DNA of 64,000 nucleotides from Gordius sp. MW1 (lineage: Eukaryota > Nematomorpha > Gordioida > Gordea > Gordiidae), in the NCBI GenBank assembly GCA_964036665.1, contig OZ038531.1, positions 22,092,591-22,156,590 of the forward strand. The letters run 5' to 3'. Numbering within the stretch: position 1 is the first letter of the stretch; each line of letters starts with the position of its first letter. The notes beneath the pieces were generated by a model. It was not told where the DNA came from and ran no database searches. It was given only the letters and a program-made list of their open reading frames with translations. The position numbers were made by a program, and so were the translations under genes. This document shows positions 1-62,875 of the stretch, piece after piece.

Positions 1-344
1 GTGCAATAGTTTTAACAGTAGCACGTAAAAATGCACGAGAGGTTAGTCGATAGCAGCCAATCTGTTAAAAAAATTTAGCAGGAGCTCGAGCAGTAAATTT
101 GAGCAGATAGTAGATTGAATTGCTTTTTTTAAACTATTTTAGTTACTTACAATATTTGCTCATGGTATATTATAAAGTTATTATATTATAGTTTTATAAG
201 AAATTAAGCATGTTGAGCATAAATGATGGATTGCACGATAATAAGATGAGATGGTATATTTGATTTTTTACTTGACACGTTATTATATACATTTGGAGTT
301 TTTAGGTATAAATATTTTGTACAGGTGGTTAAATATATATGGGG

Positions 345-1850: not shown

Positions 1851-1990
1851 CCAGTTTGCCGCAGGGGTTCGTCCCAACCCCTGAACCCGTCTGGTAAAAC
1901 CCGATGTTTTATGGAACCGAACCCATTTTAAAAATACCCTTAAAACCCGAACCCGATCAATACAAAATTTTTGCCATCTATAAGTAAAAA
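1851..1990. other. Unique centre of the palindrome, with CCCGAACCC motifs
   Basis: A non-array spacer between the two opposed arrays. It contains repeated AACCC/CCCGA motifs (for example AAAACCCGAACCCGATC) like those in the subterminal parts of hAT elements elsewhere in this window (31254-32325). It may be a relic of such an element that once occupied the loop. Confidence 0.5.
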
Positions 1991-3415: not shown

Positions 3416-3768
3416 CCATATATATTTATTTAACCACCCGTACAAAATATTTATACCTAAAAACTCAAAATGTATATAATAACATGTCAAGTAAAAAATC
3501 AAATATACAATCTCATCTTATTATCGTGCAATCCATCATTTATGCTCAACATGCTTAATTTCTTATAAAACTATAATATAATAACTTTATAATATACCAT
3601 GAGCAAATATTGTAAGTAACTAAAATAGTTTAACAAAAGCAATTCAATCTACTATCTGCTCGAATTTACTGCTCGAGCTCCTGCTAAATTTTTTTAACAG
3701 ATTTGGCTGCTATCGACTAACCTCTCGAGCATTTTTACGTGCTACTGTTAAAACTATTGCACCGAACA

Positions 3769-20500: not shown

Positions 20501-23500
20501 CTTGATTGATCAGCTGGTATCTGACAGTGCGAAATAGAGCGCCGAGAGTGTGTAATTCCGGTGCTGTAGAACGCTATTGCAGTTCTGGAAAATTCTGTCG
20601 GTACCTGCTGGTGGACAAGAGGACGCGGTGGTATTTAACGTTTATTATTTAACGTGTGAACGAGGTTTCGGATATGCATGAGCGCACGTATACCCAGAAG
20701 CGAATTAATTAGTTTTTCGACGTTAATCGTCGGTACACTTTCGGGTGTGGCACCTACGGGTGCGACGTCTACGGACGTGTTTAATTAATTCGGAGGCTTA
20801 TTGCCTGTTATGACCTGTTTTTTTGGCTTTATGCCCTATCACCTTTATATTAGGTTTGATGAGGTCGAGTTTTCTGGGTGGGCAAATTGCCCGTGCGCAT
20901 GATTGATTAATTTGTTGGAGTTAATTACCTCGCATGTACGAAGGGAAGTTAATACCATCGTTGTCAGGTCCAAGGTTACCGTTATGGAGTTCATAGCTCC
21001 CAGGTGATTATGGTAGGCGGAGTTGCATTTATGCGAGATACGCCTGATGACATTTTTTGACAGTCGCTGGTGCCTATGTCGGCGCCAATTGCTGATATGT
21101 GGTATAGCGACGTCATCTTTATTTAATGGAAATATCGTACGCTTTGGTCGAGAGGCTAGCAGCTCTTAGGGAGAAGCGGCCTAGACGACTTAGAGTGACG
21201 AAGATGTTTCTGTCTTGCTCGTATGGGGGAAAATCAAAGAAACAATTGGGGTGAAGTATCCTATCCCGAACCCAACGACGCTCAGATGCTCTGGCCAAAA
21301 CGCTCTCCCCCTAGCAAGCTTGAAGGGTATGGTGCGTTTGCGTTTCAATTTTTACGGTCAACGGTTTGCGGTTCAATTTTTAAGGTCAACGACGAAATTA
21401 AATTGAGAAGACCAATCAAGACCGAACAGGAAAACGAGCCTGGTAATGTTCAATACAAATCGAGGTCAACAACTCAAATTCGACGACAGGGCTTAGAAGT
21501 TAACGATCAGGTCGGTGGAGGTTATCGTGAAGGGTATGGTGTTGTAGTCGCTGACTACATTATGAGTAGAAAGCACAGCTGCGCTTGCAAGAGAGTACGG
21601 GAAATGTATGCTCTTTGTGGAGAATGTTGTATCATGGCACACTCACACAAACCCCCCCCCCTCATCTTAGTTTGCATATTTAGTAAAGTCTGTACACGCG
21701 TAGTCCCTCTCCCCCTCCCCATTGCTCTTACGCATTTTAACTCCGATCTATATATAGACGCGTAGATATACATCACGTGTAGATGTAGATATCCATACGC
21801 GCGTTTTCATTGGTAAAATATAATCTTTTGTTCACAACATAACATATGATGTGGTTTTTTTCTCGTTATAACATATAATATTCCTCGCCGATTCTTATTG
21901 GGAAAATAAATTATTCTATGAAATAAATTATGAGTAAAGTAATTGTAAGGTAAGAAACAGACATTGTCTTTATAATAATAACGTAGGTTATTAGTTAGTA
22001 TGTGAGCCAAACATGCCTAATATATAGTTACTTTTAATCATTTTTGGGGTAATCTTTTTCACCAAAATATGTTTCGCCTTCATATGTGTTGATTTTTGTT
22101 AAATTTTCGTTTGCGACCTCGATGTTAAGTAGTTATGTCTGGTGCAGGTAGCATTTCACAAAGATAGTTCGTTCGATTCAAAGCAGTGATTTTTAATGAT
22201 CATAAAAAAGAAAGACAGTTTTTTTATGGGTAAGGAATTTGAGCGTGATTTTGGCCCTTTCCACGTCCATAACTTAAAAAATATTGGTCAATAATGGCTA
22301 AAATTTTGAGAAATTACTATAATACATGACTTGACCAAAAATTATCCAAATCTGAGATGGTCGACCGAAAACCATTTAAAATGTCATAGAAAGGCCCCCC
22401 CCTTATGTATATTTTCATTTTTTAGATTTGAGTTATATCTTTAGTTGAACAAATTTGTTTATTGTGTTTTCCCTCCATAATTTGTTAATTTTAAACTAAA
22501 TAAATTCGATACTTTAAATAAGCTGGTGTTTGGCATTATTTGAAAATCGTGGCCATATATGTATTAAACATTATTTTGTTTGATAAATTTCCATGTAAAT
22601 ATATATTTTATTTTTAAAGGCAATTATTTAGGCTAAATTTGAAAATTGTAAAAATGCATGCGGATTGAATTAAAGATTTTCCTAGCGCGAACTTGAAGTA
22701 AAAATTTATTTTGAAAAGTTATACGTATTATATTTTATGTATGAATAGATCGCCAACAAAGAATCGGGGTTGTGTTTAGATATGCTGGGCCGAGATCTGA
22801 AATCCGTTCAAAACATCGGATTATACCCATGCCAAAACAGCAGTTCTCAAGAGGTAAAAAATTCCTTGGCTTTTAGTTTTATTTTTTGTTGAAAATTTGA
22901 AATTTACATAAACCTATCTTTCATGTTGGAATTCATTTAAACAATCATTTTGTCAAATTATATAAAACTCACATTTTTGTATTCTTCTTAGTTGATTTTT
23001 AGCATGTCTTTCAGGGATTATTAACTAGGTTATTAACGTCTACGCCAGAAGTGATGCAAAAAATTTATTGTTTTTTCTTAGAATAATTAAGTGCCATACA
23101 ATTTTTGAGCTTGATTTCAACGAAAGTCCCGTCCAACTTGTTAAAATGGGAAACTATATAATTTTGGTTGAATTTTTGCCTAAATATAAATAATGACCTC
23201 TGTTGATTGTTTAACTCCGGTTTGCAGCCACTTTCCTCCTTTATTTTTGGATTTTAACTGCCTTTTTAATTTCAATTGATTATTTTTGAAACTCATCCAA
23301 CTTCTTGTTTGACGGAAAACTACGTATTTTGGGGTATGGGTTATAATAGCGCTGTTGTTGCCTCATGCTCTGGTTCCTTCGGTAAACAGGCCAAGGCATT
23401 TTTTTGCAGGAATCATAAAAGTTTCGACGAAATCTAAATTTTCCACGCTTTTTTCACTCGGGCAACGACTTGGGATTCTTAATTGAGAATCTTTTGCCGA

Positions 23501-25046
23501 CTCTCGGCCCGTTTCTGACGATAATGATCTAGATCTTTTTATTTAAGCTAATGTTGTAAAAACGGCTGGGTTTTATTTAATCCTTTAGTTTATTTAAAAA
23601 TAACGGCCGACTATGGTGTGTTTTTCGAAATTCGACCAGCCTAGTGGTCGACTGAGAAAAATAGACCAAATAATCTTTGGTCGGTTTATGTTTAGGCGAC
23701 TAAAACCAACGGTCGACCAAACAAAACCCAGCCCTTTTTACAACACTCCTTTAAGCGATTTCATAAAAATAATTTTTTTTTTATCTTAACCCCCCAAAAT
23801 ATTTAGGTCTTTTCCCTAGCTAACGACGGTCGACTGAGGATGGAAGAAAGTTGTGCCAGTTCTGCTCGATCCGGAGTTGCAGCTAAAGGATTCGCTATCA
23901 CCATGTCAGAATGCGTTAATTTCAATATTCGCGACACTTGGAAGTATACCGAGGTAATACCTCATTAATTGCTACATGCAATTTATGGGCTCTCTTTTGG
24001 TTGGCTGTCCATCTGTCGTGTCCTGTCCAACTTGTATTTTTCAATAATTGCCGTGGAAACTTCTTATACGGGTTTTTAATGGCCGTGGACTTATGCTTGT
24101 GTAAAAGACATCTTTTATTTTGCTTTCGCAAATAGACTAACTAATGACACCGCTGGGTTGGCTTTACTTTTTTCGACCTCGTTTGAGCCCAAATTTCATT
24201 ATTGTTTATGCACTCGACTGGATACCTTTATTAATGAATTTCTTTTAGGAACTTTTTTGCAATAACATTAAAAAAAGTTTATGCTTTATGGCGTACTCGC
24301 TATGAAATATCTATTGATGGTTTAATGGGATGGTCTGAGTCAAAAAGAAATAAGGGATTTCTATATAACTGTCAGCCTCGTTTATATTTGATAGTTATTC
24401 AAGATTTTGCTTTTTTTACACCACAGCACCAGTGTTGTAAATAGACCTGGTTTTGTTTAGCCGATTGGTTTCAATTGACAAAACTTAAACAAACCAAAGG
24501 CTTTTTGGTGTCTGTTTTTCTTAGTCGACCTCCCGGCTTAGTCGAAGTTTGAAAAACAAACGAGAGTCGTCGACCGTTAGTATTAGTTCAGCTAAAGGTC
24601 GACCAAACAAAACCCAACCGTTTTTACAACACTACTTGCTATAAAATAACTATTGATGGCCTAATGGGAAGGTCTGAGTGAACAGGAAATAAAGGATATC
24701 TATGAAACTGCCAGCATCGTTAAGATCTAACAGCTACGCAAACTTTTGCTATTGGGCGCGAGGGTTTAAATTTAAAATAAGCACGTTTTTATTGCTGATA
24801 CCGATGCACATTTAGTAGCTTCTCGTTTAATTAATAATGGGATCCTAGTGTCTGTCCTGTCTCGTCCTGTCCAATATTAAATATATTTATTATCAGAACG
24901 GGCCCCTCATTCACGAATCGACTGGCCTATGCTTGGATGTGAGTGGTAGAACGGCAAATCAAGACCTATTTCTGAACGATTGCTTAGACACACCGTCCCA
25001 GAAATGGCTTTTCAAAGATAATTTTCCACCCAATTGGACTTATTAA
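5958..25046 (+). CDS. Polypeptide N-acetylgalactosaminyltransferase (GALNT/Pgant family), 10 exons
   Basis: Transfers GalNAc from UDP-GalNAc to Ser/Thr of secreted proteins in the Golgi, the first step of mucin-type O-glycosylation. Joined exons: 5958-6280, 6450-6616, 7682-7859, 15168-15374, 15717-15834, 16491-16676, 17727-17861, 22749-22853, 23807-23953, 24897-25046. These give 1716 nt and 571 aa in a single frame, close to the ~560-aa family norm. Visible parts: short cytosolic tail and membrane anchor (about 15-31), stem, GT-A domain with the metal-binding D-A-H at 214-216, MAGG at 296-299, WGGEN at 321-325 and GHIFR at 348-352 (His349 is the expected Mn ligand), then a ricin-B lectin domain (439-571) with two GLCLD motifs and a final QKW. 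All introns are GT-AG. The subfamily cannot be fixed by eye: features of GALNT1, 3/6 and 12 are mixed. A CAG just before position 5941 could be the 3' splice site of a 5'-UTR intron. Confidence 0.95.
6450..6616 (+). CDS. GalNAc-transferase exon 2 (start of GT-A domain)
   Basis: Encodes [21 protein letters not shown] and onward to [14 protein letters not shown], the first Rossmann-like strand pair that binds UDP. Acceptor TATAG|G, donor AAAG|GTAAAC. This exon is too short and frame-split to stand out as a long open frame, but it is required for an intact domain. Confidence 0.93.
7682..7859 (+). CDS. GalNAc-transferase exon 3 (DXH motif)
   Basis: Encodes [10 protein letters not shown] through [12 protein letters not shown]. 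It includes GLIRAR and the catalytic D-A-H that coordinates Mn2+ and the sugar-nucleotide phosphates. Acceptor TGTAG, donor TTG|GTAAGT. The Trp codon is split across the following 7.3-kb intron. Confidence 0.94.
8697..10706 (-). CDS. hAT transposase with BED zinc finger, 669 aa, intact
   Basis: An uninterrupted frame of the ZBED5/FAM200/SCAND3-like hAT transposases. A BED-type zinc finger lies at about 100-130 (Cys104, Cys107, His124, His129 in [18 protein letters not shown]...RHLNLNH). The RNase H-like catalytic core has acidic residues near QIDESTD (Asp249) and [10 protein letters not shown] (Asp317). The C-terminal hAT dimerisation region ends [12 protein letters not shown] ... [13 protein letters not shown], matching the family's C terminus. 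The first ~30 residues are hydrophobic and unlike the family, so translation may start at a later Met or the mRNA may be spliced. Expected to cut and paste its own element and, in trans, MITEs with matching ends. Confidence 0.93.
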   Translation of the reverse strand: MDRKIVHYFLYCLFILNSYYIPYYEQKAERNIGIFFDLNNRGPGTSNISEGSDDDTAKNETEKTNSPKTKGIKSSNNRIRKYYRDYIKYGFVSIEVRGTTKPQCVICGVVLSNESMKPNKLWRHLNLNHDKYKNKKEDFFIRKRDELKNQKTLINVTTTTNKNLLKASFIAALYIAKAKKPFTIAEELLKPAMFNICKELFEPFVSNKIKEIPLSNDAIYNRTLLIANDLQEQLTGYIKNSPWFSLQIDESTDVSNRSICLGYIRFIDFIKMDISEEFLFCIDLETDTTSENIFNKIDSFLNTNGLLWKNCVGICTDGAASMTGCYKGITSRIKRIAHANITTTHCFIHREQLASKEMSEELNEVLIISVKIINFIKGSSLKSRLFSIFCEEVGADNSSLLFHTEVRWLSRGKILTRLFELRLEVELFLNDKNSSLSSYFDDNNWVAKLSYLADIFTILNQLNISMQGPKSDIFTMHNKIEAMKMKLQRWIQRIDSNIYEMFPFYSQLISDSKFQFEKENVNYLIKCHILKLIDKFEKYFPNDEGHITKLWIQDPYNNYKNTNLSSDDEDSLLELINDCNLKSLFKTKSLAQVWIQIRAEYPPLFSAAMQNLLPFASTYLCEKGFSTMVDIKTKKRNRLRLDSCMRIALQSIEPRINKLVDDVQQQKSH
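10895..10970 (+). ncRNA. tRNA-like sequence (degenerate tRNA or SINE head) inside the hAT
   Basis: GTGTGAGTGGTTATAGCGACGTC resembles a Pol III box A and early tRNA body, and GAGTTCGAATCCC about 40 bases later is a near-perfect box B. The D-arm to T-arm interval carries extra AT-rich bases, and no clean acceptor stem is evident. A working tRNA is therefore unlikely. It lies upstream of the transposase gene, on the opposite strand, and is either a captured tRNA fragment or a SINE promoter relic. Confidence 0.5.
11281..11507. mobile_element. hAT-type MITE with 8-bp target duplication
   Basis: Ends GGGACCGGGTCAAAATAGCAG and, inverted, AGAATCGGGGTCAAAACAGCAG. Flanked by a perfect 8-bp duplication AAATTAAC (11273-11280 and 11508-11515). 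The interior has TTAGGGTTAG runs that look telomere-like but are only a few copies. Inserted in the left arm of the long-TIR element. Confidence 0.88.
11522..11551. repeat. Poly(C) tract
   Basis: About 30 consecutive C in the left inner arm of the long-TIR element. The inverted right arm has the matching G tract at about 12309-12321, much shorter. The difference illustrates homopolymer slippage since the arms were identical. Confidence 0.9.
11783..12088 (-). CDS. Small open frame in the core of the long-TIR element
   Basis: 101 codons beginning [20 protein letters not shown] and ending [11 protein letters not shown]. It sits at the centre of symmetry of the long-TIR element, where a transposase remnant would be expected. 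I recognise no domain; the middle ([19 protein letters not shown]) is moderately basic and hydrophobic. It could be an exon of an element-encoded protein or chance. Confidence 0.3.
   Translation of the reverse strand: MMSNSCNETLNTNSNQNYEDEKIPVSLLNNPCGPSNSFAFPNKFRELSLKKWDTLTIVSPLPIREGELIPYLKVKCSMRHQNILPQVKYNSNNVESIFYRG
12417..13298 (+). mobile_element. Deleted hAT element with GATCCGATCC subterminal repeats
   Basis: Ends are TAGAGGTGTGCACGGATC and its inverted partner GATCCGTGCACACCTCTA. Flanked by a perfect 8-bp duplication ATTTGGAT (12409-12416 and 13299-13306). Multiple CGGATCGGAT words fill both subterminal regions, as in Ac-like hATs where they bind transposase. Only 882 bp remain, holding the last part of a transposase, so the element is non-autonomous. 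It interrupts the right arm of the long-TIR element. Confidence 0.93.
12768..13039 (+). pseudogene. hAT transposase C-terminal remnant (dimerisation domain)
   Basis: Reads [40 protein letters not shown] and then [16 protein letters not shown], the hAT dimerisation motif. After SVAGRRRKN the frame stops; the family tail ([20 protein letters not shown] then stop at about 13039) continues in another frame, so one frameshift separates them. All N-terminal and catalytic parts are missing. Confidence 0.85.
15065..15144. mobile_element. hAT terminal fragment (GGGTCGGGTT repeats) beside exon 4
   Basis: GGTCGGGTTCGG words followed by GTTGAAAAAAGTGACTTTAC and GGGCTCTA match, inverted, the left terminus of the element at 31254. 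No partner end is seen nearby, so this is a solo terminus. It ends 23 bp upstream of the exon 4 splice acceptor of the GalNAc-transferase gene, in the polypyrimidine/branch-point zone. Confidence 0.65.
15168..15374 (+). CDS. GalNAc-transferase exon 4
   Basis: Encodes [12 protein letters not shown], then [10 protein letters not shown], and ends GGSETAPLR, the middle of the catalytic domain. Acceptor TACGTAAG|G lies only 23 bp after a hAT terminal fragment. Donor AAG|GTTGAT; the Arg codon is split. Confidence 0.92.
15492..15657. mobile_element. MITE of the TGTTGTAAAAACGGCTGGG family (intron 4)
   Basis: Starts TAATGCTGTAAAAAAGTCTG and ends inverted at CCCTTTTTACAACGCTA. It has the family's GTTTAGTCGACTAAA and TTGGTCTG interior. 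Fills nearly half of the 342-bp intron 4. Relatives lie at 23549, 24431, 25840 and 48998, and the same termini cap the 55184-61813 foldback element. Confidence 0.75.
15717..15834 (+). CDS. GalNAc-transferase exon 5 (WGGEN motif)
   Basis: Encodes [16 protein letters not shown] and [14 protein letters not shown], the Gal/GalNAc-transferase signature. The open frame runs upstream through the intron end, but the acceptor CTACCAG|A restores the standard [11 protein letters not shown] join with exon 4. Confidence 0.92.
15864..16016. mobile_element. MITE of the CATGGGCGTAGCC family, copy 2 (intron 5)
   Basis: Begins CATGGGCGTAGCCAGGATTG and ends TTGGCTAGGCCCATG. Flanked by AAGACACT / AAGATACT, an 8-bp target duplication with one mismatch. 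This is what identifies the family as hAT-type. Starts 29 bp after the exon 5 donor. Confidence 0.88.
16055..16400. mobile_element. Degraded relative of the long-TIR element (intron 5)
   Basis: Shares phrases with the right arm of the 8050-14040 element: GATGACCAATCGAT, CTATGGAGA-like, AATGAGCTAA, TTTTAGAAATTA and TTTCATAAAAATCT. Similarity is patchy, so ends are approximate. Non-coding. Confidence 0.5.
16491..16676 (+). CDS. GalNAc-transferase exon 6
   Basis: Encodes [20 protein letters not shown] and [10 protein letters not shown], ending NHRPDLF. It holds the conserved His of GHIFR that completes the metal site. Acceptor GCGTCAG; donor TTT|GTAAGA; phase 0 at both ends. Confidence 0.92.
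17727..17861 (+). CDS. GalNAc-transferase exon 7 (end of catalytic domain)
   Basis: Encodes [19 protein letters not shown] to [19 protein letters not shown]. [27 protein letters not shown] is the conserved hinge into the lectin domain. Phase 0. Followed by a 4.9-kb intron full of LTR-element sequence. Confidence 0.92.
18087..19545 (-). mobile_element. Inverted partial copy of an LTR-type element
   Basis: Reverse complement of about 20335-21787 with very high identity. It contains the first part of an LTR (to about 18345) followed by internal sequence. Sits head to head with the copy at 19570-22010, making a palindrome of ~3.7 kb in GalNAc-transferase intron 7. Treated as a fossil: incomplete, no coding domain recognised. 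High arm identity suggests a young rearrangement. Confidence 0.7.
19570..20084 (+). repeat. 5' LTR of the intron-7 element
   Basis: TG...CA boundaries, a G/C homopolymer (CCCCCCCCC near 19680), a TATATATAG word near 19777, and an end abutting the primer-site-like TGGTGTCAGA. The length matches the related LTR at 63265-63769 (505 bp), which supports the boundaries. Confidence 0.65.
21543..22010 (+). repeat. 3' LTR of the intron-7 element (3' end approximate)
   Basis: The first ~330 bases are nearly identical to the 5' LTR (GTAGTCGCTGACTACATTATG onward). After about 21860 the two LTRs diverge sharply although scattered words still align. The end is judged only by length. Confidence 0.55.
22185..22400. 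mobile_element. Second degraded relative of the long-TIR element (intron 7)
   Basis: Shares TAATGGCTAAAATTTT, GGTCGACCGAAAA and related words with the arm of the 8050-14040 element. Short and diverged; assignment tentative. Confidence 0.4.
22749..22853 (+). CDS. GalNAc-transferase exon 8 (lectin repeat alpha)
   Basis: Encodes [17 protein letters not shown] through [14 protein letters not shown] and the YPC cysteine are the usual disulfide pair of the first ricin-B repeat. Acceptor GAATAG, donor GAG|GTAAAA, 35 codons in phase 0. Confidence 0.88.
23549..23748. mobile_element. MITE of the TGTTGTAAAAACGGCTGGG family (intron 8)
   Basis: Begins TAATGTTGTAAAAACGGCTG and ends CCAGCCCTTTTTACAACACTC. 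Flanked by ATTTAAGC / CTTTAAGC (23541-23548 and 23749-23756), an 8-bp duplication with one mismatch. Interior has GGTCGACTGAGAAAAA-type hairpin words. Confidence 0.85.
23807..23953 (+). CDS. GalNAc-transferase exon 9 (lectin repeat beta)
   Basis: Encodes [16 protein letters not shown] to RDTWKYTE. Position and Cys/Trp spacing match the second ricin-B repeat. This repeat has ESC where the other two have LCLD, so its sugar-binding site may be degenerate. 49 codons, phase 0. Confidence 0.9.
24296..24411 (+). repeat. Direct repeat copy 1 (intron 9)
   Basis: About 115 bp from ACTCGCTATGAAATATCTAT to CAAGATTTTGCT. A second diverged copy is at 24633-24751 in the same orientation, with a MITE between them. 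Non-coding in both frames. Confidence 0.75.
24431..24633. mobile_element. MITE of the TGTTGTAAAAACGGCTGGG family (intron 9)
   Basis: Starts AGTGTTGTAAATAGACCTGG and ends CAACCGTTTTTACAACACTA, with the family's GTCGACC interior. Lies between the two direct repeats, so a duplication has included or been seeded beside the insertion site. Confidence 0.78.
24633..24751 (+). repeat. Direct repeat copy 2 (intron 9)
   Basis: Copy of 24296-24411 at roughly 75-80% identity by eye (shared TATTGATGG, CTAATGGGA-like and GGTCTGAGT). Ends about 145 bp before exon 10. Confidence 0.75.
24897..25046 (+). CDS. GalNAc-transferase exon 10 (lectin repeat gamma, stop)
   Basis: Encodes [18 protein letters not shown] to [15 protein letters not shown] and a TAA stop at 25044-25046. 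GLCLD and QKW are the third ricin-B repeat. A possible AATAAA polyadenylation signal lies at 25438-25443. Confidence 0.92.
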   Translation, partial: NGPLIHESTGLCLDVSGRTANQDLFLNDCLDTPSQKWLFKDNFPPNWTY

Positions 25047-25839: not shown

Positions 25840-25990
25840 GACTAGTCTGGTAAAAAGGGGATTTTTTGGTCTGTTTTTCTTGGCCCACCTCTAGGCTTAG
25901 TCTAAATTTGATAAACAGACCAGAATCGGCCGTTAGTCTTAGTAAAATCAAAGGCGGCCAAACAAAACCCAGCCGTTTCTACAACATTAG
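25840..25990. mobile_element. MITE of the TGTTGTAAAAACGGCTGGG family, 3' of the gene
   Basis: Ends CCAGCCGTTTCTACAACATTA. The interior words TTGGTCTGTTTTTCTTGG and CTAGGCTTAGTC match the family. The left end is worn, so the start is approximate. Confidence 0.65.
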
Positions 25991-48997: not shown

Positions 48998-49154
48998 TTG
49001 TGTTGTAAAAACGGCAGCGTTTTGTTTGGTCCATGGTCTGTTTTCCAACTTTCGACTAAGCCAAGTGGTTGACTAAGATGGACAGACCTAAAAACCTTTA
49101 GTCGACGAAAACCAATGGTCGACCAAACAAAACCCAGCCGTTTTGACTACACTA
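48998..49154. mobile_element. MITE of the TGTTGTAAAAACGGCTGGG family
   Basis: GTGTTGTAAAAACGGCAGCG at the left and CCAGCCGTTTTGACTACACT at the right. Inside are TTTTGTTTGGTCC, GACTAAGATGGACAGACC and GGTCGACCAAACAAAACCC. Confidence 0.82.
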
Positions 49155-50191: not shown

Positions 50192-50902
50192 ATATCGGTC
50201 AACAAAATATGGACAAATCAACCGGCAAACTGTTTGCAGATTCTGGGAGAGTTTTTTACGGTGAACACAAATGTTATTTTAGTTTTTTCCCTATACGTCA
50301 AATTATTGAAATATTTGCTGTCAAAGTTGCTAAAAACAGAGATTTGGGCGTTTTATAAACGTCAATTAAATCGGTAAAACTTTAGTTTAATAGTTTTGAT
50401 TTTTATATAAAGGGGAGAGGAATCCATCAAAAGCTATTTTTTACCTTATCTCTATTAATTTTTTATATTTATTCAAAATTAACTTATGTTTTTACATTAA
50501 CAAATTGCCCAGACTTAAGGTCGCCCTCCCTTCCCTTTAACACTAAAAGTTTAGTGCGTGTTAATTTTTATCTACTCTACTGCTATTAATTGTTTTAATA
50601 ATTTTGTAAAGAAACGTTAAAGAAATCATTAAGTTATTAACCAAACTTTAAGATAAAGCCTAATAAATTACTTTACCTATTGATATCATTCTTTGTAATA
50701 CCGCCATCTTGCGAATTTATAAATTACACGCAAAAATTCATAGTTTCAAAAAAATGCAAAGCTAATTATGGATTTTAATGTAAGTGAATAAAGGGTAAAT
50801 ATAGCTTATATAATAAAGTTGAAATTTTTGAAAGTAACTTAAGCTTGATAAATAACATTACTTCTTTATCGTGTTGAAAATCCCACAGACGTAGGGTAAG
50901 TT

Positions 50903-52380
50903 TCAGCAGCCTCTTCCATCTGAGTCCGTAAATGCCATGCCAATTTCCATCTGTTTGACGTCCATATCCTTTTCGACCAGTCGTTTCCAGGTGCCCCTTC
51001 CTCTTCTTCCAGGCACGTCCATCTCCAGCGTTCGCCGTGTGACATCGTCCTCGTCTCTTCGTAATACATGGCCGTACCACCGAAGTCGATTTTCTCTTAA
51101 GAAGTCCTTCGTCGCTTGTATACCCATCTTTGTCATCAAGGATTCGTTCGTCCTGCGATCCAGCTTGGTGTAGCCTAAGCTCCATCGCACCATTCTCATT
51201 TCCGTAACTTGCAAGAGTTTCTCCTCCGCGGTGGTTACAGCCCATGTTTCGCTCCCGTAAAGCAAGACCGGTCGCACGATGGTTTTGTACGCCTTGCTTT
51301 TCAACCAAATTGGTATCTTTTGACACCGGAGATGCTGCGCCACTTGAGCCATGCTTTCTTGATCCGAGAATGGACTTCGGCGGTACATCCTCCCTCTTGA
51401 TGTAATAGCGAGCCAAGATATGTGAACTTATCAACCTCCGTGTACATTGGACCGTCATTTTTGTGCATTTGCGGACTACCGCCCATCGTTTGCATGTAAA
51501 CCGTTTTCTTCTCGCTGACCTTTAACCCGAATTCCGAAAAACGTTCTGACCATTTTTTCGCCTGATGAAAAACCCCTTCTCTTGTTTCATCGCATAGGAC
51601 AATATCATCGGCATATAGCATAGTCCAAGGGGCTGGCTTGTGCAAGTCCTTTGTTATTGTATCCATAATTAGATTAAACAAGAATGGGCTTAACGCTGAC
51701 CCTTGATGTAGTCCAAACATTATTCGGAAGGGTTTCGTTTCTCCTACGGTAGTCTTAACAGATGCAACCGCGCCATTATACATTTCCTTAATAAGTCGAA
51801 CATATCCTTCGGGTATATTTCTGGCTCTAAGGGACCACCATATTAAGTCTCTCGGAACCGTATCGTAGGCCTTTTCTAAATCGATGAAGACCATGTGTAA
51901 GTTCTTTCTTATGTCGCCATATTTTTCATCGTCTGCTTCAACGCAAAGATTGGATCCATCGTTGATTTACCGGCCACGAATCCAAACTGATTAGGCGAGA
52001 GACATACTTCGTCATTGAGCCTTTTCACTAGCACCCTTTCTAGTAGTTTTAGTGAGTGGCAGGTACTTGATACCTCTAAAGTTGCCACATTCCTGCGCGT
52101 CTCCTTTGCCTTTGTATATGGGTATGATCGTACTTTCCCTCCATTGGTCAGGGATACGACTCTCATACAGCATAGCGTTAAATAGGCCTGTCATTATGTC
52201 GGGTCCTTCTCCTTTGCACCCAAGCCAAGCTTCGATCGGTAAATCATCGGGACCTAGCGCTTTCCCTTTCCGCATCTTAGTTAGTTGCGCTCCTACTTCA
52301 TAAGCCTGCAATGGTAAAACCAAGTTCGAGTTCGGTTCCACCCTCTCTAGCGGTCTTCTATCATTCGTTTTGTTCATCAT
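50903..52380 (-). pseudogene. LINE reverse transcriptase, broken into several frames
   Basis: Blocks in order: GKALGPDDLPIEAWLGCKGE and RESTIIPIYKGKGDAQECGN (52380-52012); SPNQFGFVAGKSTMDPIFAL (52166-51909); FIDLEKAYDTVPRDLIWWSL, LYADDIVLCDE and LKVSEKKTVYMQ (51894-51301); RMVRWSLGYTKLDRRTNESL onward (51388-50903). YADD is intact. Frame changes separate the blocks. Confidence 0.83.
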
Positions 52381-52398
52381 ATTTTAAAAATAATCGTT

Positions 52399-53175
52399 TT
52401 ATCTTTTGATGACTTCCTTCGGTTTACACAACGTTCGTCCCTCTTCACTTTTAATGACTTTCAGTGTCCCGACTTCTCGACTTTTTTTCTCCCTAATTTT
52501 TGCGAGTTTATACATGACTATGTCGCCGCCCTTGGTATCGAGCTTGTTTGCCATCTCGGTGTAAGCCTCGTTCTTCGCTATCGCAACCGCTATCTTAGCT
52601 TTGCGTTTCGTTTCACGATATGCCACGTAGTCTTCTCCTATCTTCGTTTTGTACCATCGTAGGTACAACGCCTTCTTTTCTTCTATAGCCTCTTTGACCG
52701 AGTCATTCCACCACCATAGTTCACGCTTGTGAGCTCTGCCGCCCTTAGTTCGTCCCAAGATTTGAAAGGCCGTTTCTTTTAGAACATTTGCAACGGTGTC
52801 CCACCTTTTGTTAATGTCGCCCCCCAAGCCTGCAACCTTCAAGAGCGGAGTTGCTCGAGCGTGAAACATTTCATTTGCACGATCATCCTTAAGCTTTTCG
52901 GACTTTGTCCTTGGTGTGTAGACTTTTCTCCTTTCGGGAAAAATCTTTCTTGCTATATCGAGGACAACTGGCCGATGTTGTTTGGCGATTTCTTCCCCCG
53001 ATATAACCTTGCAATCTTTAACTTGCCACAATTTTTGCGCTTCACTAGGATGTAGTCGACCTGTGTAAGGTGATCCCCACTGCTGTACGTCGCTAAATGT
53101 TTGGTACGCTTCTGAAAGAAAGTATTTACAATGGCCATATCGTAAGCTTGCGCCATCTGTAGTAACTTCTCTCAC
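52399..53175 (-). pseudogene. LINE endonuclease-to-RT linker block
   Basis: 258 codons. Positively charged linker with KRELWWWNDSVKEAIEEKKA and YLRWYKTKIGEDYVAYRETK, typical of the region between endonuclease and RT in these LINEs. Interrupted at both ends by frame changes. Confidence 0.75.
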
Positions 53176-53231
53176 TCTTTATTCTTCACCCCATAGCCAT
53201 GCCCGCCGTGATTTCGTTCGTACACGCCCCT

Positions 53232-53825
53232 TTATTTCCCAACGTGCCCATTAAAGTCTGCTCCAATGATGAGATTCTCGTCAGGCTTCACGTAGCGTAT
53301 TTCTTTTTCGAGCTTCTCATAGAATTCATCCTTCTCATTTTCGGAACATCCAACCTGGGGCGAATACGCACAAATAACATTGACAAGGCCGCCTTGATCC
53401 GCCAGCTTTATGCACATCAATCTATCCGAGCATCGTTTGACTTCGACAACCTTGTCCTTAAAGAAATCGCTAGGCACTATACCAACCCCTTTCTTCCGTG
53501 ATGGGGAACCCATGTAGTATAGCTTGTAACAATCTCCTAGCTCCCTGGCTTTTGTTACATGCCACCGCGTTTCTTGTAGACACGCTATGTGTATCCTTCG
53601 CCTTTTTAGCATCTGCGCAACCTCGATGCTCTTCCCCGTCAGCGTGCCCACATTCCAGCTGGCCACTCTTGTCCGTTCGACAACTAGATTCCTTAACCGC
53701 CTTCGTTGTGAGTGAGGCGGTAACCCTTGTATACTTTTCACATTGCACGGGGGGATGATGCAATGCGCGTCGTTTGGGGAGGACGCCCTAGCATTCTGGT
53801 ATAAGTTCGTATTTGAAGCTGCCAT
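53232..53825 (-). pseudogene. LINE endonuclease domain, N-terminal block
   Basis: 197 codons from MAASNTNLYQNARASSPN to GADFNGHVGK, ending in a stop right after the first catalytic Asp/Asn motif. The rest of the endonuclease is found in other frames at about 53175-52950 (SSGDHLTQVDYILV). Apurinic-like endonuclease family by motif order WNVGT / QETRW / GADFN. Confidence 0.82.
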
Positions 53826-54092
53826 GTTGTTTGGAGTTGCTTTTTTACAGCCGGCTTCCGACCTGACGCCAACCCTCCACTTTTTTCACACGGACTTGGG
53901 ACCGTCGTTGGTAGTATAAACTCATAAAAGTAAAAAATAAAAATGCTGTAATGGTGTGATCTTAAAGCAATTTAGTGCCATCTGCATATTATTGAATAAT
54001 CATTTTATAACATACTTTTTTAATTATTAACTAATGAAATAAATTCACCTCTTATGTTTCAACAATGGAGTAGACTGCAGAAAGACTGGGAG

Positions 54093-54415: not shown

Positions 54416-55654
54416 TAGACATTTATTGGAAAATTTACACGAAATCTTTAAATAATTTTATTGAAATCAAATATGAAATTACTGCGTTTATGTAGGCATT
54501 CATTTTTTCCTATTCTAATATCAAATTCAAATGAACATTAGAAATTATATTCGCAAATCAAATTGTAAGTTCTATTTTTGACAAATAGAATGTTTTATTT
54601 AAAAGTATTCATGAATATGATAAATTAGATTCATTAACATTTTTATTGAAAATTAATTATAACAAATTTTTTAATTGCAGAATGTAAAGAAAAATCAGTT
54701 CCAAAGATTTTGAAGGTTATGCAGAGGTATCAAGTCAAGCGACAAGAGGCCACATGATAAAATATGAATTCCATTCATAAGGTCAGACGCCTACAACGTC
54801 AATGATATTTACAAACTAGACACAAAAACTAAAAATTATCATTAAATTGGCAAAATTGTAATATAAGAAAAAATTACTAAATATAAAGCTATTAATTTAA
54901 AATAAATAACATATGCATAGGCCTTCAATTCATATTTATTTGCACATTTTCTAATGAATATTTATAGTAAGTAAGGTGCATACGACCTTTTACAATGCAA
55001 GGTACACACTCTGTCGTATTTTAATTGAAAAGCCATAGGCTATTAATTTTATGCAATAGCGCATCATACAGTTAATTTTTATTTTAATAATTATCCTATA
55101 CTTATGGTCACTTATAATATTATTTAATAACAATAGAATGAGGACTATGTTTTATATTGATTTTACATTTTGTATATATATACTAGTGTTGTAAAAACGG
55201 CTGGCTGGTTTTTCCCAGCGTATTGCTAAGCTTAGTTGTTGGCGTTTTTTTTCACCCAACCTTTTCAGTGTTAGGTGAATTTTCTTGGGAGGGCTTTGGC
55301 GTTTGGCGTTTTCGCAAAAAACACCCAAAGCGTTTTGGGTGTTTTTATTGGGGGCACCTTTGGCGTTTAGGTTTGGGTGTATTAATGAGCTAAAGGGTTT
55401 GGGTGGATAATATTATTAACCTTTTGGTTTGGTTTTGGTCGTTTTGGGTTGGGCATGCAAATATATCAATTTGTTTATATTGTTCATCATATTTGTGTAT
55501 TTAGATTTAGGTAATGAACTTTTAATGAAAATAAAAATAAATGTATCATGACGTCACAATCTAATAAATTCAGTAAATTATAGTTAATTATTATGCATTA
55601 TAGAAGTAGGTAGTGAATCAATATGTTTTATTTACGAAAAAAAAATTTGTGAAG

Positions 55655-57178
55655 ATTTGCCCCCCCCCCCCTTTATTTTTTACCCTCTTTCTCACCTGGG
55701 GAAGAACGGCGGGCAGGTGGGGTGTTTGCCCCCCCCCCCTTATTTTTTACCCTCTTTCTGATCCGGGGGAGAGGCGGGGGGGGGCAGGGGGGTGTTTTGC
55801 CCCCCCCCCCTTATTTTTTACCCTCTTTCTGATGCGAGGGAGAGGGGGGGGGGCAGAGGGTGTTTTGCCCCCCCCCTAAATTTTTATCCTCTTTCTGATG
55901 CGAGGGAGAGGGGGGGCAGGGGGTGTTTTGCCCCCCCCCCTAATTTTTTATCCTCTTTCTAATGCGGGGGAGAGGGGGGCATGGGGGGTGTTTTGCCCCC
56001 CCCCCCCAATTTTTTACCCTCTTTCTGATGTGGGGGAGGGGGGGGGCATAGGGGGTGTTTTGCCCCCCCCCCCCCCTAATTTTTTACCCTCTTTCTGATC
56101 CGGGGGAGAGGCGGGGCATGGGGGGTGTTTTGCCCCCCCCCAATTTTTTACCCTCTTTCTGATGCGAGGGAGAGGGGGGAAGGCAGGGGGTGTTCTGCCC
56201 CCCCTAATTTTTTATCCTCTTTCTAATGCGGAGGAGAGGGGGGCATAAGGGGTGTTTTGCCCCCCCCCCCTAATTTATTACCCTCTTTCTGATGTGGGGG
56301 AAAGGGGGGGGGCATAGGGGGTGTTTTACCCCCCCCCCCCTAATTTTTTACCCTCTTTCTGAACCGGGGGAGAGGCGGGGCATGGGGGGTGTTTTGCCCC
56401 CCCCCCAATTTTTTACCCTCTTTCTGATGCGAGGGAGAGGGGGGGGGGCAGGGGGTGTTTTGCCCCCCCCCCCCCTAACTTTTTATCCACTTTCTAATGC
56501 GGGGGAGAGGGGGGCATGGGGGGTGTTTTGCCCCCCCCCTAATTTTTTACCCTCTTTCTGATGTGGGGGAGAAGAGGGGGAGGGGCAAAGGGGGTGTTTT
56601 GCCCCCCCCCCCTAATTTTTTACTCTCTTTCTGATCCGGGGGAGAGGCGGGGCATGGGGGGTGTTTTGCCCCCCCCCAATTTTTTACCCTCTTTCTGATG
56701 CGAGGGAGAGGGGGGGCAGGGGGTGTTTTGCCCCCCCCCCTAATTTTTTACCCTCTTTTTAATGCGGGGGAGTGGGGGGCATGGGGGTTTTTTGCCCCCC
56801 CCCCAATTTTTTACCCTTTTTCTGATGCGAGGGAGATGGGGGGCAGGGGGTGTTTTGCCCCCCTACCCCCTAATTTTTTACCCTCTTTCTGATGCGAGGG
56901 AGAGGGGGGTGGCAGGGGGGTGTTTTGCCCCCCCCCCTAATTTTTTACCCTCTTTCTCATCCGGGGAGGGGGGGGGCATGGGGGTGTTTTGCCCCCCCCC
57001 TTATTTTTTACCCTCTTTCTCACCCGGGAAGGGGGGGGGCATGGGGGGTGTTTTGCCCCCCCCCCCCTTATTTTTTACCCTCTTTCTGATGCCGGGGAGA
57101 GGGGGGGGGGGGGTGAATCGCCCCTCTTCTTATTTTTTACTCTCTTCCTCACCCGGGGGGGGGGCGCCGGAAAGCCCT
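55655..57178 (+). repeat. G/C-tract tandem array, left arm
   Basis: About 20-21 units of ~70 bp: a G-run of 5-12, GCATGGGGGGTGTTTTGCCC, a C-run of 7-15, TTATTTTTTACCCTCTTTCTGAT-like and GCGGGGGAGAGG. Units vary mainly in homopolymer length and in ATCCGG/ATGCGA/ATGTGG. The Pro/Gly/Phe open frames through it arise from the repeat period and are not genes. Confidence 0.95.
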
Positions 57179-58477
57179 TTTTAACCCTTTCAAAATATTT
57201 TTGTGAATTTTTGCGGTCACAGTGGTGACAGTCATAATCAACATTTTCTATTGAGATTAATATTTTTTTTTGAAAATAGACTTATTATATGACTGAAAGA
57301 TGTTCTACTATTATAAAAAATATTTTTGGGAAGATTTGCGGTCACAGTGATGACAAATGTCTTAATCAACATTTTTTATTAAAATTTATTTTTTTTTGAA
57401 AATTGCCTTATTAAAAGACAAAGATTTTCTAATATTCGAAAATATATTTTTGAAGATTTGCGGTCAATAATTGTCTTAATATACCATATCAATTAAAATA
57501 AATTTTTTTAATTTAACTTCATTTAAGAAATAAGCTGTATTATTAAATATAATATTAATATGAAATTTTACCAGTTTAAAAAAATTTGCCATCATGGGTA
57601 AGTAAGTTTTACTATTTAAGTTATCTGGGCATTTAATGGAAAAACTTGGTATTCCAAAAAGCATATCATGCTATTAATTACTATGCTTTCACAAGGCACC
57701 AACACTCTACGTCCTGTTGACTTAGACCTCGCGTTTACAATGCTTATAAGGATCATAAAAAATTTACGGACTTTTCTGAGTAACAAAAATGAGTTAAGCA
57801 TCTTAATTTAAATTATTGCTTATTTTTAATAAGAAAATTAATTTTCTAATTGATTATGACTTAATTAGTAGTTGACATAATAAAAAAAAAGTTTAATTTT
57901 CATTTATTTTATTTATAATAATATGATTCGCAACTTCTACATACCTTGATCTGTTGTACGTTAAAAAAGAAATGAATGTAAAATGATGTAATAAAGAGCC
58001 TAGCCAGCCCACGCCACACCATGCCTTGTTGTGCCATGATTTTTTTATATATTTAGTTTAGTACTTAACTAAAATCTGATAGGTTTAAATCTGGTTTTGC
58101 GCATGCATGCAACGAGAAAAGGAAGAGAGAGGGTGGATTAGTACATGAACATGTACATGCTACATGGGAGTAGTGATATGTCGAGTCGCGCGGGATGCCG
58201 TTCTCTGATATTGAAAATAGAGTTTAAATATAAAATAAAAGGGACATTATATAATTAATAAGTCTTTATCTTTTACAAGAGGCGAGGAATTCAAAATATA
58301 TTTGAAATTAAATTTTGTGATTAAAATTGCTATTGCCGGGAATATTTAGAGGGGGATTTGTTAGCTGTCATTAATTTAGAATGAATTAAAATATTAATTT
58401 TTAATTGAAGGATTGAATTCAAAATCTGCTCTCGAATGGCCAGATAAATCTCACTTTATAATCGTTTTCTATTTATT
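57179..58477. other. Unique centre of the foldback element
   Basis: AT-rich, non-coding. At 57181-57480 it has two and a half diverged copies of a ~120-bp unit (GCGGTCACAGTGGTGACAG, GTCTTAATCAACATTTT, long T-run, TTGAAAAT). These resemble the unit of the palindrome at 1-3768 (GCGGTCGCCCAGGTGACAA, GTCATAATCTAC). The remainder has no recognisable gene. Confidence 0.65.
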
Positions 58478-61349
58478 GAAAACACCCCCTATGCCCCCCT
58501 CTCCCCCGCATTAGAAAGAGGGTAAATAATTGGGGGGGGGGGGGCAAAACACACCCCATGCCCCCCCTCTCCCCCACATTAGAAAGAGGGTAAAAAATAA
58601 GGGGGGGGGGGCAAAACACCCCCCATGCCCCCCCTCTCCCCCTGATCAGAAAGAGGGTAAAAAATCGGGGGGGGGGGCAAAACACCCCCTATGCCCCCCC
58701 CTCTCCCCCACATCAGAAAGAGGGTAAAAATTGAAGGGGGGGGGGCAAAACACCCCCCATGACCCCCCTCTCAAGAGGGTAAAAAATAAGGAGGGGGGGG
58801 GGGCAAAACACCCCCTATGCCCCCCCCCCCTCTCCCCCACATCAGAAAGAGGGTAAAAAATAAGGGGGGAGGGGGGCAAAACACCCCCTATGCACCCCCC
58901 TCTCCCCCACATCAGAAATAGGGTAAAAATTGAAGGGGGGGGGCAAAACACCCCCCATGACCCCCCTCTCAAGAGGGTAAAAAATAAGGAGGGGGGGGGG
59001 GGCAAAACACCCCCTATGCCCCCCCCCTCTCCTCCGGATCAGAAACAGGGTAGAAAATTAGGGGGGGGGGGCAAAACACCCCCCATGCCCCCTCTCCCCC
59101 GCATTAGAAAGAAGATAAAAAATTAGGGTGGGGGGCAAAACACCCCCTGCCCCCCCCTCTCCCTCGCATCAGAAAGAGGGTAAAAAATTAGGGGGGGGGG
59201 CAAAACACCCCCCATGCCTCCCCCCTCTCCCCCTGATCAGAAAGAGGGTAAAAAATTAGGGGGGGGGGGGGGGGGTTAAACACCCCCTATGCCCCCCCCC
59301 CTTCTCAGCCACAACAGAAAGAGGGTAAAAAATAAGGGGGGAGGGGGGCAAAACACCTCCTATGCCCCCCCCTCTCCCCCACATCAGAAAGAGGGTAAAA
59401 AATAAGGGGGGAGGGGGGAAACACCCCCTATGCCCCCCCCCTCTCCCCCACATGAGAAATAGGGTAAAAAATTGGGGGGGGGGCAAAACACCCCCCATGC
59501 CCCCCTCTTAAGAGGGTAAAAAATAAGGGGGGGGGGCAAAACACCGCCTATGCCCCCCCTCTCCTCCGGATCAGAAACAGGGTAAAAAATTAGGGGGGGG
59601 GGCAAAACACCCCCCATGCCCCCCTCTCCCCCGCATTAGAAAGAGGGTAAAAAATAAGGGGGGGGGGCAAAACACCCCCCATGCCCCCTCTCTCCCCCTG
59701 ATCAGAAAGAGGATAAAAAATTTGGGGGGGGGGCAAAACACCCCCTATGCCCCCCCCTCTCCCCCACATTAGAAAGAGGGTAAAAAATAAGGGGGGGGCA
59801 AAACACCCACCATGCCCCCCCCCTCTCCCCCTGATCAGAAAGAGGGTAAAAAATTAGGGGGGGGGGGTAAAACACCCCCTATGCCCCCCTCTCCCCCACA
59901 TCAGAAAGAGGGTAAAAAATAAGGGGGGAGGGGGGCAAAACACCCCCTATGCCCCCCCCCTCTCCCCCACATCAGAAAGAGGGTAAAAAATAAAGGGGGG
60001 GGGGGCAAAACACCCCCCATGCCCCCCCCCCTCTCCCCCTGATCAGAAAGAGGGCAAAAAATTAGGGGGGGGGGGTACACCCCCTATGCCCCCCCCCCCT
60101 CTCCCCCACATCAGAAAGAGGGTAAAAAATAAGGGGGGAGGGGGGCAAAACACCCCCTATGCCCCCCCCCCCTCTCCCCCACATCAGAAATAGGGTAAAA
60201 ATTGAAGGGGGGGGGCAAAACACCCCCCATGACCGCCCTCTCAAGAGGGTAAAAAATAAGGAGGGGGGGGGGCAAAACACCCCCTATGCCCCCCCTCTCC
60301 TCCGGATCAGAAACAGGGTAAAAAATTAGGGGGGGGGGGCAAAACACCCCCCCATTCCCCCTCTCCCCCGCATTAGAAAGAAGATAAAAAATTAGGGTGG
60401 GGGGCAAAACACCCCCTGCCCCCCCCCCCCTCTCCCTCGCATCAGAAAGAGGGTAAAAAATTAGGGGGGGGGGCAAAACACCCCCCATGCCTCCCCCGTC
60501 TCCCCCTTGTCAGAAAGAGGGTAAAAAATTAGGGGGGGGGGGGTAAAACACCCCCTATGCCCCCCCCCCTTCTCAGCCACATCAGAAAGAGGGTAAAAAA
60601 TAAGGGGGGAGGGGGGCAAAACACCTCCTATGCCCCCCCCCTCCCCCACATCAGAAAGAGGGTAAAAAATAAGGGGGGAGGGGGGAAACACCCCCTATGC
60701 CCCCCCCCCTCTCCCCCACATGAGAAATAGGGTAAAAAATTGGGGGGGGGGCAAAACACCCCCCATGCCCCCCTCTTAAGAGGGTAAAAAATAAGGGGGG
60801 GGGCAAAACACCGCCTATGCCCCCCCTCTCCTCCGGATCAGAAACAGGGTAAAAAATTAGGGGGGGGGGCAAAACACCCCCCATGCCCCCCTCTCCCCCG
60901 CATTAGAAAGAGGGTAAAAAATAAGGGGGGGGGGCAAAACACCCCCCATGCCCCCTCTCTCCCCCTGATCAGAAAGAGGGTAAAAAATTTGGGGGGGGGG
61001 GGCAAAACACCCCCTATGCCCCCCCCCTCCCCCCACATTAGAAAGAGGGTAAAAAATAAGGGGGGGGGCAAAACACCCACCATGCCCCCCCCCTCTCCCC
61101 CTGATCAGAAAGAGGGTAAAAAATTAGGGGGGGGGGGGGGGTAAAACACCCCCTATGCCCCCCTCTCCCCCACATCAGAAAGAGGGTAAAAAATAAGGGG
61201 GGAGGGGGGCAAAACACCCCCTGCCCCCCCGCCTCTCCCCCGGATCAGAAAGAGGGTAAAAAATAAGGGGGGAGGGGGCAAACACCCCACCTGCCCGCCG
61301 TTCTTCCCCAGGTGAGAAAGATGGTAAAAAATAAGGGGGGGGGGGCAAA
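58478..61349 (-). repeat. G/C-tract tandem array, right arm (inverted)
   Basis: About 40 units of the same ~70-bp repeat read as reverse complement (AGAAAGAGGGTAAAAAAT, G-run, CAAAACACCCCC). Several higher-order blocks repeat: the run of units at 58880-59640 recurs almost unit for unit at 60180-60900, so the arm grew by block duplication. About twice as long as the left arm. Confidence 0.95.
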
Positions 61350-61954
61350 TCTTCACAAATTTTTTTTTCGTAAATAAAACATATTGATTCGCTACCTACT
61401 TCTATAATGCATAATAATTAACTATAATTTACTGAATTTACTAGATTGTGACGTCATGATACATTTATTTTTATTTTCTTAAATTAAAAGTTCATTACCT
61501 AAATCTAAATACACAAATATGATGAACAATATAAACAAATTGATATATTTGCATGCCCAACCCAAAACGACCAAAACCAAACCAAAAGGTTAATAATATT
61601 ATCCACCCAAACCCTTTAGCTCTTTAATACACCCAAACCTAAACGCCAAAGGTGCCCCAAAAAAATACCCAAAACGCTTTGGGTGTTTGTTACGAAAACG
61701 CCAAACGCCAAAGCCCTCCCAAGAAAATTCACCTAACACTGAAAAGGTTGGGTGAAAAAAAACGCCAACGCTTGCAGGCAACCAATAGAAACCCTTGGTT
61801 TTTTACAACACTAATATATACATTTTTATTTGTGCTGCAATTATGGCTTGTTATAGACTAAACATTCTTGTATTTATTTATATTGTCTAAATATATGGAT
61901 GACATATATGAAATATGTTAACCTTTATAATAATGATTATTTATATACGCCTCA

Positions 61955-62875
61955 AACTCTTGCGTTAGGACGACAGTTGGACAATCTAAATCTTATCGGG
62001 TTAAAATTGGATTACATCAAGGATCTGCTTTGAGTCCCTTTTTATAATATAATTATAGTCACGATAACGAGGGACATTTAAAAGCCATCGACATGGTGTA
62101 TGCTATATGCCGATGATATAGTACTTTGCGAGGAAACAAGGGAGAAAGGAATCGAAGAAGCCGAAAAGTGGTCGAAGCGCTTTGCTGGATCTGGTTTAAA
62201 GATCAACGATCGAAAAACGGTATACATGGAAATAAACGGAACAAGCACCCCATTGCTGGATGACCCTCTAATCACCCAAAAGTAGACAAGGTTTACATAC
62301 CTCGGCTCGATGCTACATCAAGAAGGAAGTTGCGCAACATAAGTCAATGCCCCGATCCAAAAAGGATGGCTTAAATGGCGAAGTATATCCGGTGTAATGT
62401 GCGACAAGAAAATGCCAATATGATTTAAAAGCAAAGCTTTTAAATCCATCGTAAGATCGGTGTTACTCTATGGAAGTGAAACATAGGCATTAAACACCAC
62501 GGAAGGAAAGCTATTACAAGCCACGGATGAGAATGATACGGTGGAGCTTGGGTTACACAAAGCTGACCATATGACCAATGACTTTTTCATGACAAAGATG
62601 GGTATTCAACCTATGGCGGACATGATTAACGAAAATCGGCTAAGGTGGTATGGGCATATACTAAGAAGGGACACGGATGACGTAAATCGAAAAGTACTGG
62701 ACATGGAGGTACCGGGGAAGAGAGGGACGACCCCGTGTCATGTAGAAAGGGCAAGTCGATAAAGTTGTGAAAATCAAAGAGATTAGTCAAGACATGGCAC
62801 TTACCCGGTCAAGATGGAAGAAGATCAAAACAAACCCCACGATTGTGGGACCAGATAACTGATAAAGAAGAAGAA
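61955..62875 (+). pseudogene. 5'-truncated RTE-like LINE fragment
   Basis: Starts in the RT (VRTTVGQSKSYR, then GLHQGSALSPFL and a stop). It continues YADDIVLCEETREKGIEEAE and NDRKTVYMEINGT, then LGYTKLDHM-like and ENRLRWYGHILRRDTDDVNR. Ends CCCACGATTGTGGGACC...GATAAAGAAGAAG, the same tail as 33392 and 50850. Multiple stops and frame changes. Lies ~140 bp beyond the foldback element. Confidence 0.85.

Follow-up and report, generated by a model that had tools for sequence, protein, structure and literature searches.

The Foldback (FB) element of Drosophila melanogaster and the TU element of sea urchin both have inverted arms composed of short tandem repeats, and TU makes 8-bp target duplications; they differ in unit sequence and unit length from the elements described here, which we call family A. 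The nearest designs to family A are Tetris and Galileo, both found in Drosophila. Tetris, a foldback of D. virilis, resembles family A in being non-autonomous, in combining an outer domain and tandem repeats in inverted arms with a variable middle, in sharing its tips with a MITE (DAIBAM), in varying in repeat number, and in having no autonomous partner found for it (PMC4079207). Its target duplications are 8-10 bp long, compared with 8 bp and a hAT-type preference in family A. Its units are AT-rich and ~220 bp long, and its three complete copies stand alongside large arrays of free satellite (PMC4079207); a review lists it as a foldback source of satellite DNA (PMC9659126). Family A, in contrast, has ~65-bp G/C-tract units, many young copies, and a core in common with a second family. 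Galileo, of the P superfamily, shares with family A the long inverted arms and the internal tandem repeats that expand and contract, but differs in its 7-bp duplications, P-type transposase, and ~210-bp repeats (PMC3573991). Searches of the open-access literature listed neither a paper on a foldback with G/C-tract arrays nor one on a satellite core present in two foldback families.

The window analyzed here is a stretch of 64,000 bp (C5:22092591-22156590) from the 211.8-Mb, 12-contig genome of Gordius sp. MW1. Its A copy spans 55184-61813 (6630 bp) and is the longest of 18 two-ended copies (range 3771-6630 bp). The copy starts with TAGTGTTGTAAAAA and finishes with the reverse complement, the 14-bp ends matching, and the sequence at the element ends places ATATATAC immediately outside both as a target duplication (left 8-bp copy 55176-55183, right 8-bp copy 61814-61821). 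From left to right, it consists of the left tip TAGTGTTGTAAAAA and left outer arm (55184-55660, plus strand), whose inverted partner lies at 61350-61813; a left G/C-tract array of ~22 units of ~65 bp (55661-57184, plus strand); a 125-bp repeat present in 2.2 copies (57185-57465, plus strand; 57192-57466 in the repeat finder output); a unique 1-kb middle (57466-58478, plus strand); an opposed right G/C-tract array of ~43 units (58479-61349, minus strand); and the right outer arm and right tip, which pair with the left outer arm (61350-61813, minus strand). Tandem Repeats Finder resolved the left array into 21.9 copies of a 64-bp unit (55663-57115) and the right array into 43.0 copies of a 68-bp unit (58479-61349), and a fuzzy unit anchor gave 22 forward units followed by 43 reverse units without interleaving. 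Alignment of the two outer arms over 404 bases shows 7 substitutions. The initial annotation, which described a 6.6-kb unit at 55184..61813 with an 8-bp duplication, matching termini, inverted outer arms, and opposed arrays of ~20 and ~40 units, is borne out by these data.

The 1-kb middle of this copy contains no open frame of at least 110 amino acids, and no transposase frame was found anywhere in the element. Runs of five or more bases number 101 for G and 128 for C. Strict G-quadruplex motifs number 13 and 18 on the two strands, whereas in shuffled sequence they average 5.5 and 5.7 and reach 13 and 12 at most; formation of G-quadruplexes by the window copy is possible on these motif counts, and serves here as a side argument only.

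Other repeats are present in the window. A large inverted repeat (18111-21773) has 653-bp arms, 98% alike, around 2357 bp and encloses a nested pair (19239-19560 and 20323-20644). Non-LTR retrotransposon pieces occur at 50775-53885, with reverse transcriptase and endonuclease domains at 51301-51966 and 53232-53885, and at 62000-62300, the latter recognized by eye.

Genome searches returned full-length matches as the best 40 of 634 candidates for the left tip (98-100% identity), the best 40 of 596 for the right tip (97-100%), and the best 40 of 586 for the A middle (95-100%); the other rows were short cross-matches, 38 of them in the left-tip search and 1 in the middle search. We fetched 20 stretches of 10 kb around the best left-tip matches, excluding the window. 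Since these copies were picked as best matches to the window tip, the sample leans young, and the left tip and outer arm, as the search target, are necessarily present in all 20 fetched loci. Both ends fall within the stretch at 17 of the 20 loci, giving 18 two-ended copies with the window; the right end of L019 lies beyond its stretch, and L023 and L024 are without a right end in theirs. All 18 share one layout, in which tip and outer arm lead into a G/C array, the centre, the inverted array, and a second outer arm, with unit order passing from forward to reverse in every copy and no units in 90,881 letters of flank. Long inverted arms with tandem repeats around a variable middle, the hallmark of a foldback, are thus present in 18 of 18. 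Divergence among the middles ranges from 0 to 4.1% (median 2.1%, 153 pairs). The middle is flipped relative to the tips in three of the two-ended copies (L012, L015, and L021) and likewise in L023 and L024, which have a left end only; exchange between inverted arms would be expected to produce such flips. Family A is a high-copy family with recent movement.

One A copy has itself been a target: a Ty3/gypsy-like sequence with a 1037-amino-acid open frame is inserted into the middle of L019 (3492-6605). L009, L023, and L024 lie in a local repeat of ~2-3 kb, found on the short contig C9 and near the start of C8, in which empty sites recur.

Elements of the hAT superfamily make 8-bp target duplications with the preference nTnnnnAn and have the terminal consensus YARNG; members of the Mutator superfamily make duplications of 9-11 bp. 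Perfect 8-bp duplications flank 16 of the 18 two-ended A copies (15 of 17 without the window copy), L015 and L017 having none, and wherever a duplication is present its length is 8 bp. The motif nTnnnnAn (T second, A seventh) occurs in 13 of the 16 perfect duplications (P 2.6e-10, for an assumed background of 0.34 per position, squared), and TAGTG, which fits YARNG, is found at both ends of all 18 copies. The window-copy duplication ATATATAC lies in a TA-rich stretch and is weak evidence taken singly, but the perfect duplications of other A copies support it.

All 18 copies were compared with the fetched sequence and the window in search of empty sites. The flanks of L009, with the element and one 8-bp copy removed, have near-identical counterparts (98.3-99.7% over 300 bp) at three places in L023 and another three in L024; these six places sit in one local repeat and may be mutually non-independent. 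The length removed, 8 bp, departs from the 9-11 bp of Mutator elements, as do the duplications of the family at large. Near-identical empty sites were found for L009 alone, L025 giving weaker matches (up to 87.6% over 193 bp), and matches of 68-76% for L016, L021, and L026 prove nothing. The initial annotation had proposed a foldback with hAT-type 8-bp duplications and had made the proposal hang on the existence of other copies with the same termini and flanking duplications. Such copies exist, as do the L009 empty sites, and the proposal is supported by the 16 of 18 perfect duplications and the 13 of 16 that have the hAT motif.

A search for an autonomous partner covered 20 hAT 3' flanks, fetched from the 150 domains that were scored out of 3413 candidates; in none of these flanks was a hAT gene with TAGTGTTGTAAAAACGGCTGG (A) tips found. 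Of their matches to the 14-base A tip, the closest has 2 mismatches (L049; 3 or 4 in the others) and was rejected as an A tip, being situated at the end of a coding domain. On C1 below 15.6 Mb, none of eight scored hAT domains has one of the listed A tips within 10 kb (by eye). The window itself contains a hAT-like element (8412-11087) with a 683-amino-acid open frame, relatives among ZBED5- and ZMYM6-like proteins (DUF4371 falling below the Pfam cut-off), and a perfect 8-bp duplication, TTCTATAC; it was set aside as a partner because its ends are of the CAGTGGTTCTTAACC type and are not A tips. Three further candidates were discarded: L050, in which the 2.4 kb between two exact A tips proved to be two small neighbouring units with no frame of at least 80 amino acids; L051, 1.05 kb long and without a matching duplication; and L029, a perfect 3109-bp palindrome of hAT-like frames with no A tips in the fetched stretch. 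In L029 (C6:5653400-5660200), two hAT-like 573-amino-acid frames stand head to head around 563 bp; this palindrome may continue beyond the fetched stretch, and may be real or an assembly product.

The tips of family A also occur on small elements. With up to 2 mismatches, TAGTGTTGTAAAAA was observed 14 times in the window against 2.2 expected by chance, an excess attributable to small elements with related tips that are also present. Five such elements have A-like tips (15493-15657, 23549-23748, 24430-24634, 25843-25989, and 48998-49154), the best duplication among them matching at 7 of 8 bases (23549-23748). Among 100 listed of 1780 occurrences of the exact 21-base A tip, six small pairs were noted by eye. 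These hAT MITEs share the 21-base tip exactly with family A but, unlike it, span only 109-205 bp and have no arrays.

An exact 21-base anchor within the G/C unit occurs 2362 times genome-wide. The mean number of exact anchors per copy (11.7 in 18 A copies, 6.2 in six B copies, described below) would roughly translate this total into a few hundred carriers. The first 100 sites, all on C1 up to 7.96 Mb, form 11 clusters as counted by eye: nine forward-then-reverse, one reverse only (L057), and a last one that is partly listed. Five of the 11 adjoin an exact A tip. L057, which is one-armed with an A-like core, counts against a strict opposed-pair rule. No free-standing array was seen among these 100 of 2362 sites, with one cluster one-armed and one partly listed, and in this respect the sites listed differ from Tetris (PMC4079207). 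A scan of viral contigs for the unit found nothing. The initial annotation had suggested that the element "carries or breeds" a satellite: carriage is confirmed by the mobility of the arrays in sister copies (see below), whereas breeding of a free satellite has so far found no support in the 100 sites listed.

A second family, B, consists of foldbacks of ~1.3-1.7 kb that have the A-type G/C unit but CATAGACTAGATAGACTGCTC ends. Seven two-ended copies were available: L052, L055, and L056, from C1 unit clusters that lack an A tip, and L058-L061, which are among the best 40 B-arm matches (294 candidates in the genome search, best 40 scored). Inverted arms with tandem repeats are found in all seven. 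Perfect 8-bp duplications flank five of them, counting L060, whose right tip is 3 bases short; L052 matches at 7 of 8 bases and L055 at 5 of 8. Because nTnnnnAn occurs in just one of the five perfect duplications and the tip, CATAG, does not fit YARNG, we have not filed family B as hAT. A third foldback, C (L062), occupies window positions 1-3860 and starts 108 bases upstream of the window. It has opposed arrays of a 129-bp repeat, the tip TAGTGTTGTTAAATTG, and the 8-bp duplication CCAATTAT on both sides (right copy 3861-3868).

Families A and B have a core in common, with inner array edge and 125-bp repeat arranged alike (88.9% across 180 bp). The 129-bp unit of C is related both to the 125-bp repeat in the A centre (69.9% over 103 bp) and to that of B (77.8% over 63 bp). 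Between the outer arms of the three elements there is no similarity at E 1e-3, except that the first nine tip bases are common to A and C (by eye). For 239 of 243 A units and 59 of 63 B units (the 63 being part of 306 units in all), the nearest unit outside the same element belongs to the same family. The shared core together with this family-wise grouping indicates that the core was formerly shared and has diverged since.

At one locus, L053, a B left arm is followed by both G/C arrays and by 41 bp of the B right arm, after which comes the right half of C. This half ends exactly at the C tip, and the outer flanks of L053 do not match. Nesting of C in B was rejected since the sequence past the C end is not the remainder of the B arm, and we therefore read L053 as a hybrid. 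Chimeras with non-matching flanks, as in L015, L017, and L053, are also described for Galileo, where they arose between subfamilies of one transposon (PMC3573991); here the core is found in elements with unrelated ends.

Sister copies of family A offer a view of change within the arrays. L009, L011, and L013 have their array structure in common and different target duplications; the same holds for L018/L020 and L025/L028, save for a single 305-bp gap. Between L009 and L011, 4713 aligned bases contain just 1 substitution but 28 length changes made up purely of G/C. Across four comparisons of sisters, two of them involving L009, G/C runs of at least 8 bases changed in 95 of 160 cases, those of 8-9 bases in 40 of 66, and those of 4-7 bases in 2 of 313; for A/T runs the counts were 0 of 34 at 8-11 bases and 1 of 512 at 4-7 bases. 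Most changed runs in five sister pairs were off by 1 base (83 of 124), with a tail up to 9. Across 120 pairs from 16 copies (the window copy and L022 left out), the mean run difference was 0.99 in sisters, 1.57 in copies 0.25-1% apart, 1.52 and 1.88 in the two bins after that, and 1.25 among the most diverged pairs, where few runs can be compared. Many of the gaps between more distantly related copies come close to the length of one or several units. The run-length pattern fits fast, saturating slippage, part of which homopolymer consensus errors could mimic. The replication slippage proposed at the outset gains this much from the 95 of 160 long runs altered, subject to the caveat of sequencing error. 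These run changes, family B as a second vehicle, and foldback C with a unit related to the A centre go beyond the initial annotation.

Homogenization is a separate matter. Arms differ by a median of 0.7% within an element and 1.2% between elements, a comparison confounded by relatedness, so that we make no claim of arm homogenization. Units of the same array lie at a mean distance of 0.186, hardly less than the 0.190 that separates them from units of other A copies, and we likewise make no claim of homogenization within arrays.

Taken together, family A is very probably a non-autonomous hAT-type foldback transposon in which a G/C-tract satellite forms the inverted arms. Its assignment to foldbacks of the Mutator, P, or Merlin type in place of hAT seems to us improbable, given duplications of 8 bp wherever present, the 13 of 16 with nTnnnnAn, terminal TAGTG in agreement with YARNG, and hAT domains abundant in this genome (3413 first-look candidates). 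That assignment draws some strength from the hAT loci checked, among which no transposase linked to A tips was found, from the one-in-five frequency of nTnnnnAn in family B, and from precedent: foldbacks are mostly held to be Mutator-like, and Tetris, with its 8-10-bp duplications, was placed there by those who described it (PMC4079207). The origin of the arrays admits another account, in which A and B each took up an ordinary dispersed satellite and no ancestral foldback core existed. The separate grouping of A and B units (239/243 and 59/63 nearest their own family) and the one-armed L057 are in line with separate capture, but the matching order of array edge and 125-bp repeat (88.9% across 180 bp) is not, nor is the opposed pairing of arrays in both families; moreover, none of the 11 listed clusters, one of them partly listed, is a plain two-ended free array. 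We consider separate capture unlikely.

A more serious challenge concerns the instability itself, which might be a sequencing or consensus artefact of G/C homopolymers, leaving the biology of an ordinary foldback. Single-base changes do predominate (83 of 124), and differences level off early as divergence grows and drop again in the most diverged bin, as consensus errors might produce. Against this, A/T runs of 8-11 bases changed in 0 of 34 cases while G/C runs of 8-9 bases changed in 40 of 66; sisters are closer to each other (0.99) than are copies 0.25-1% apart (1.57), a sign of inheritance; and gains and losses of whole units are independent of homopolymers. On balance, an artefact is the rather less likely explanation, though one with appreciable weight.

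If family A is a hAT-type foldback, a hAT transposase supplied by another element would cut and insert it by way of the terminal and outer-arm sequences, and each insertion would leave an 8-bp duplication. Whole opposed arrays of the ~65-bp unit would travel with transposition, as they have in the three sister groups. The long inverted arms, found in every two-ended copy, would allow inversion of the middle, and the observed differences in long G/C-run length and in whole units would arise by slippage and unequal exchange. The core that A and B share, and that has diverged between them, would predate its present vehicle; we infer a route from an ancestral core into both families. More tentatively, the G/C-tract foldback core may be a transferable, hypermutable inverted-satellite module that has exchanged its ends on at least one occasion (compare A and B, which may belong to different superfamilies), so that it survives beyond any single transposase, with hybrids of the L053 type as the kind of product through which such a swap would occur; we regard this proposal as plausible, though somewhat more likely to fail than to stand.

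Satellite arrays are usually studied as fixed blocks, whereas here a G/C-tract repeat has been spread by transposition as ready-made inverted arrays. This provides many independent, datable copies of a structure-prone sequence within one genome, and sister copies among them can be used to gauge G/C-run slippage, unit turnover, and inversion against substitutions. Family A also raises the question of how the host tolerates dispersed G/C tracts. That two vehicles contain the core suggests that a satellite module is not bound to remain with its original carrier transposon.
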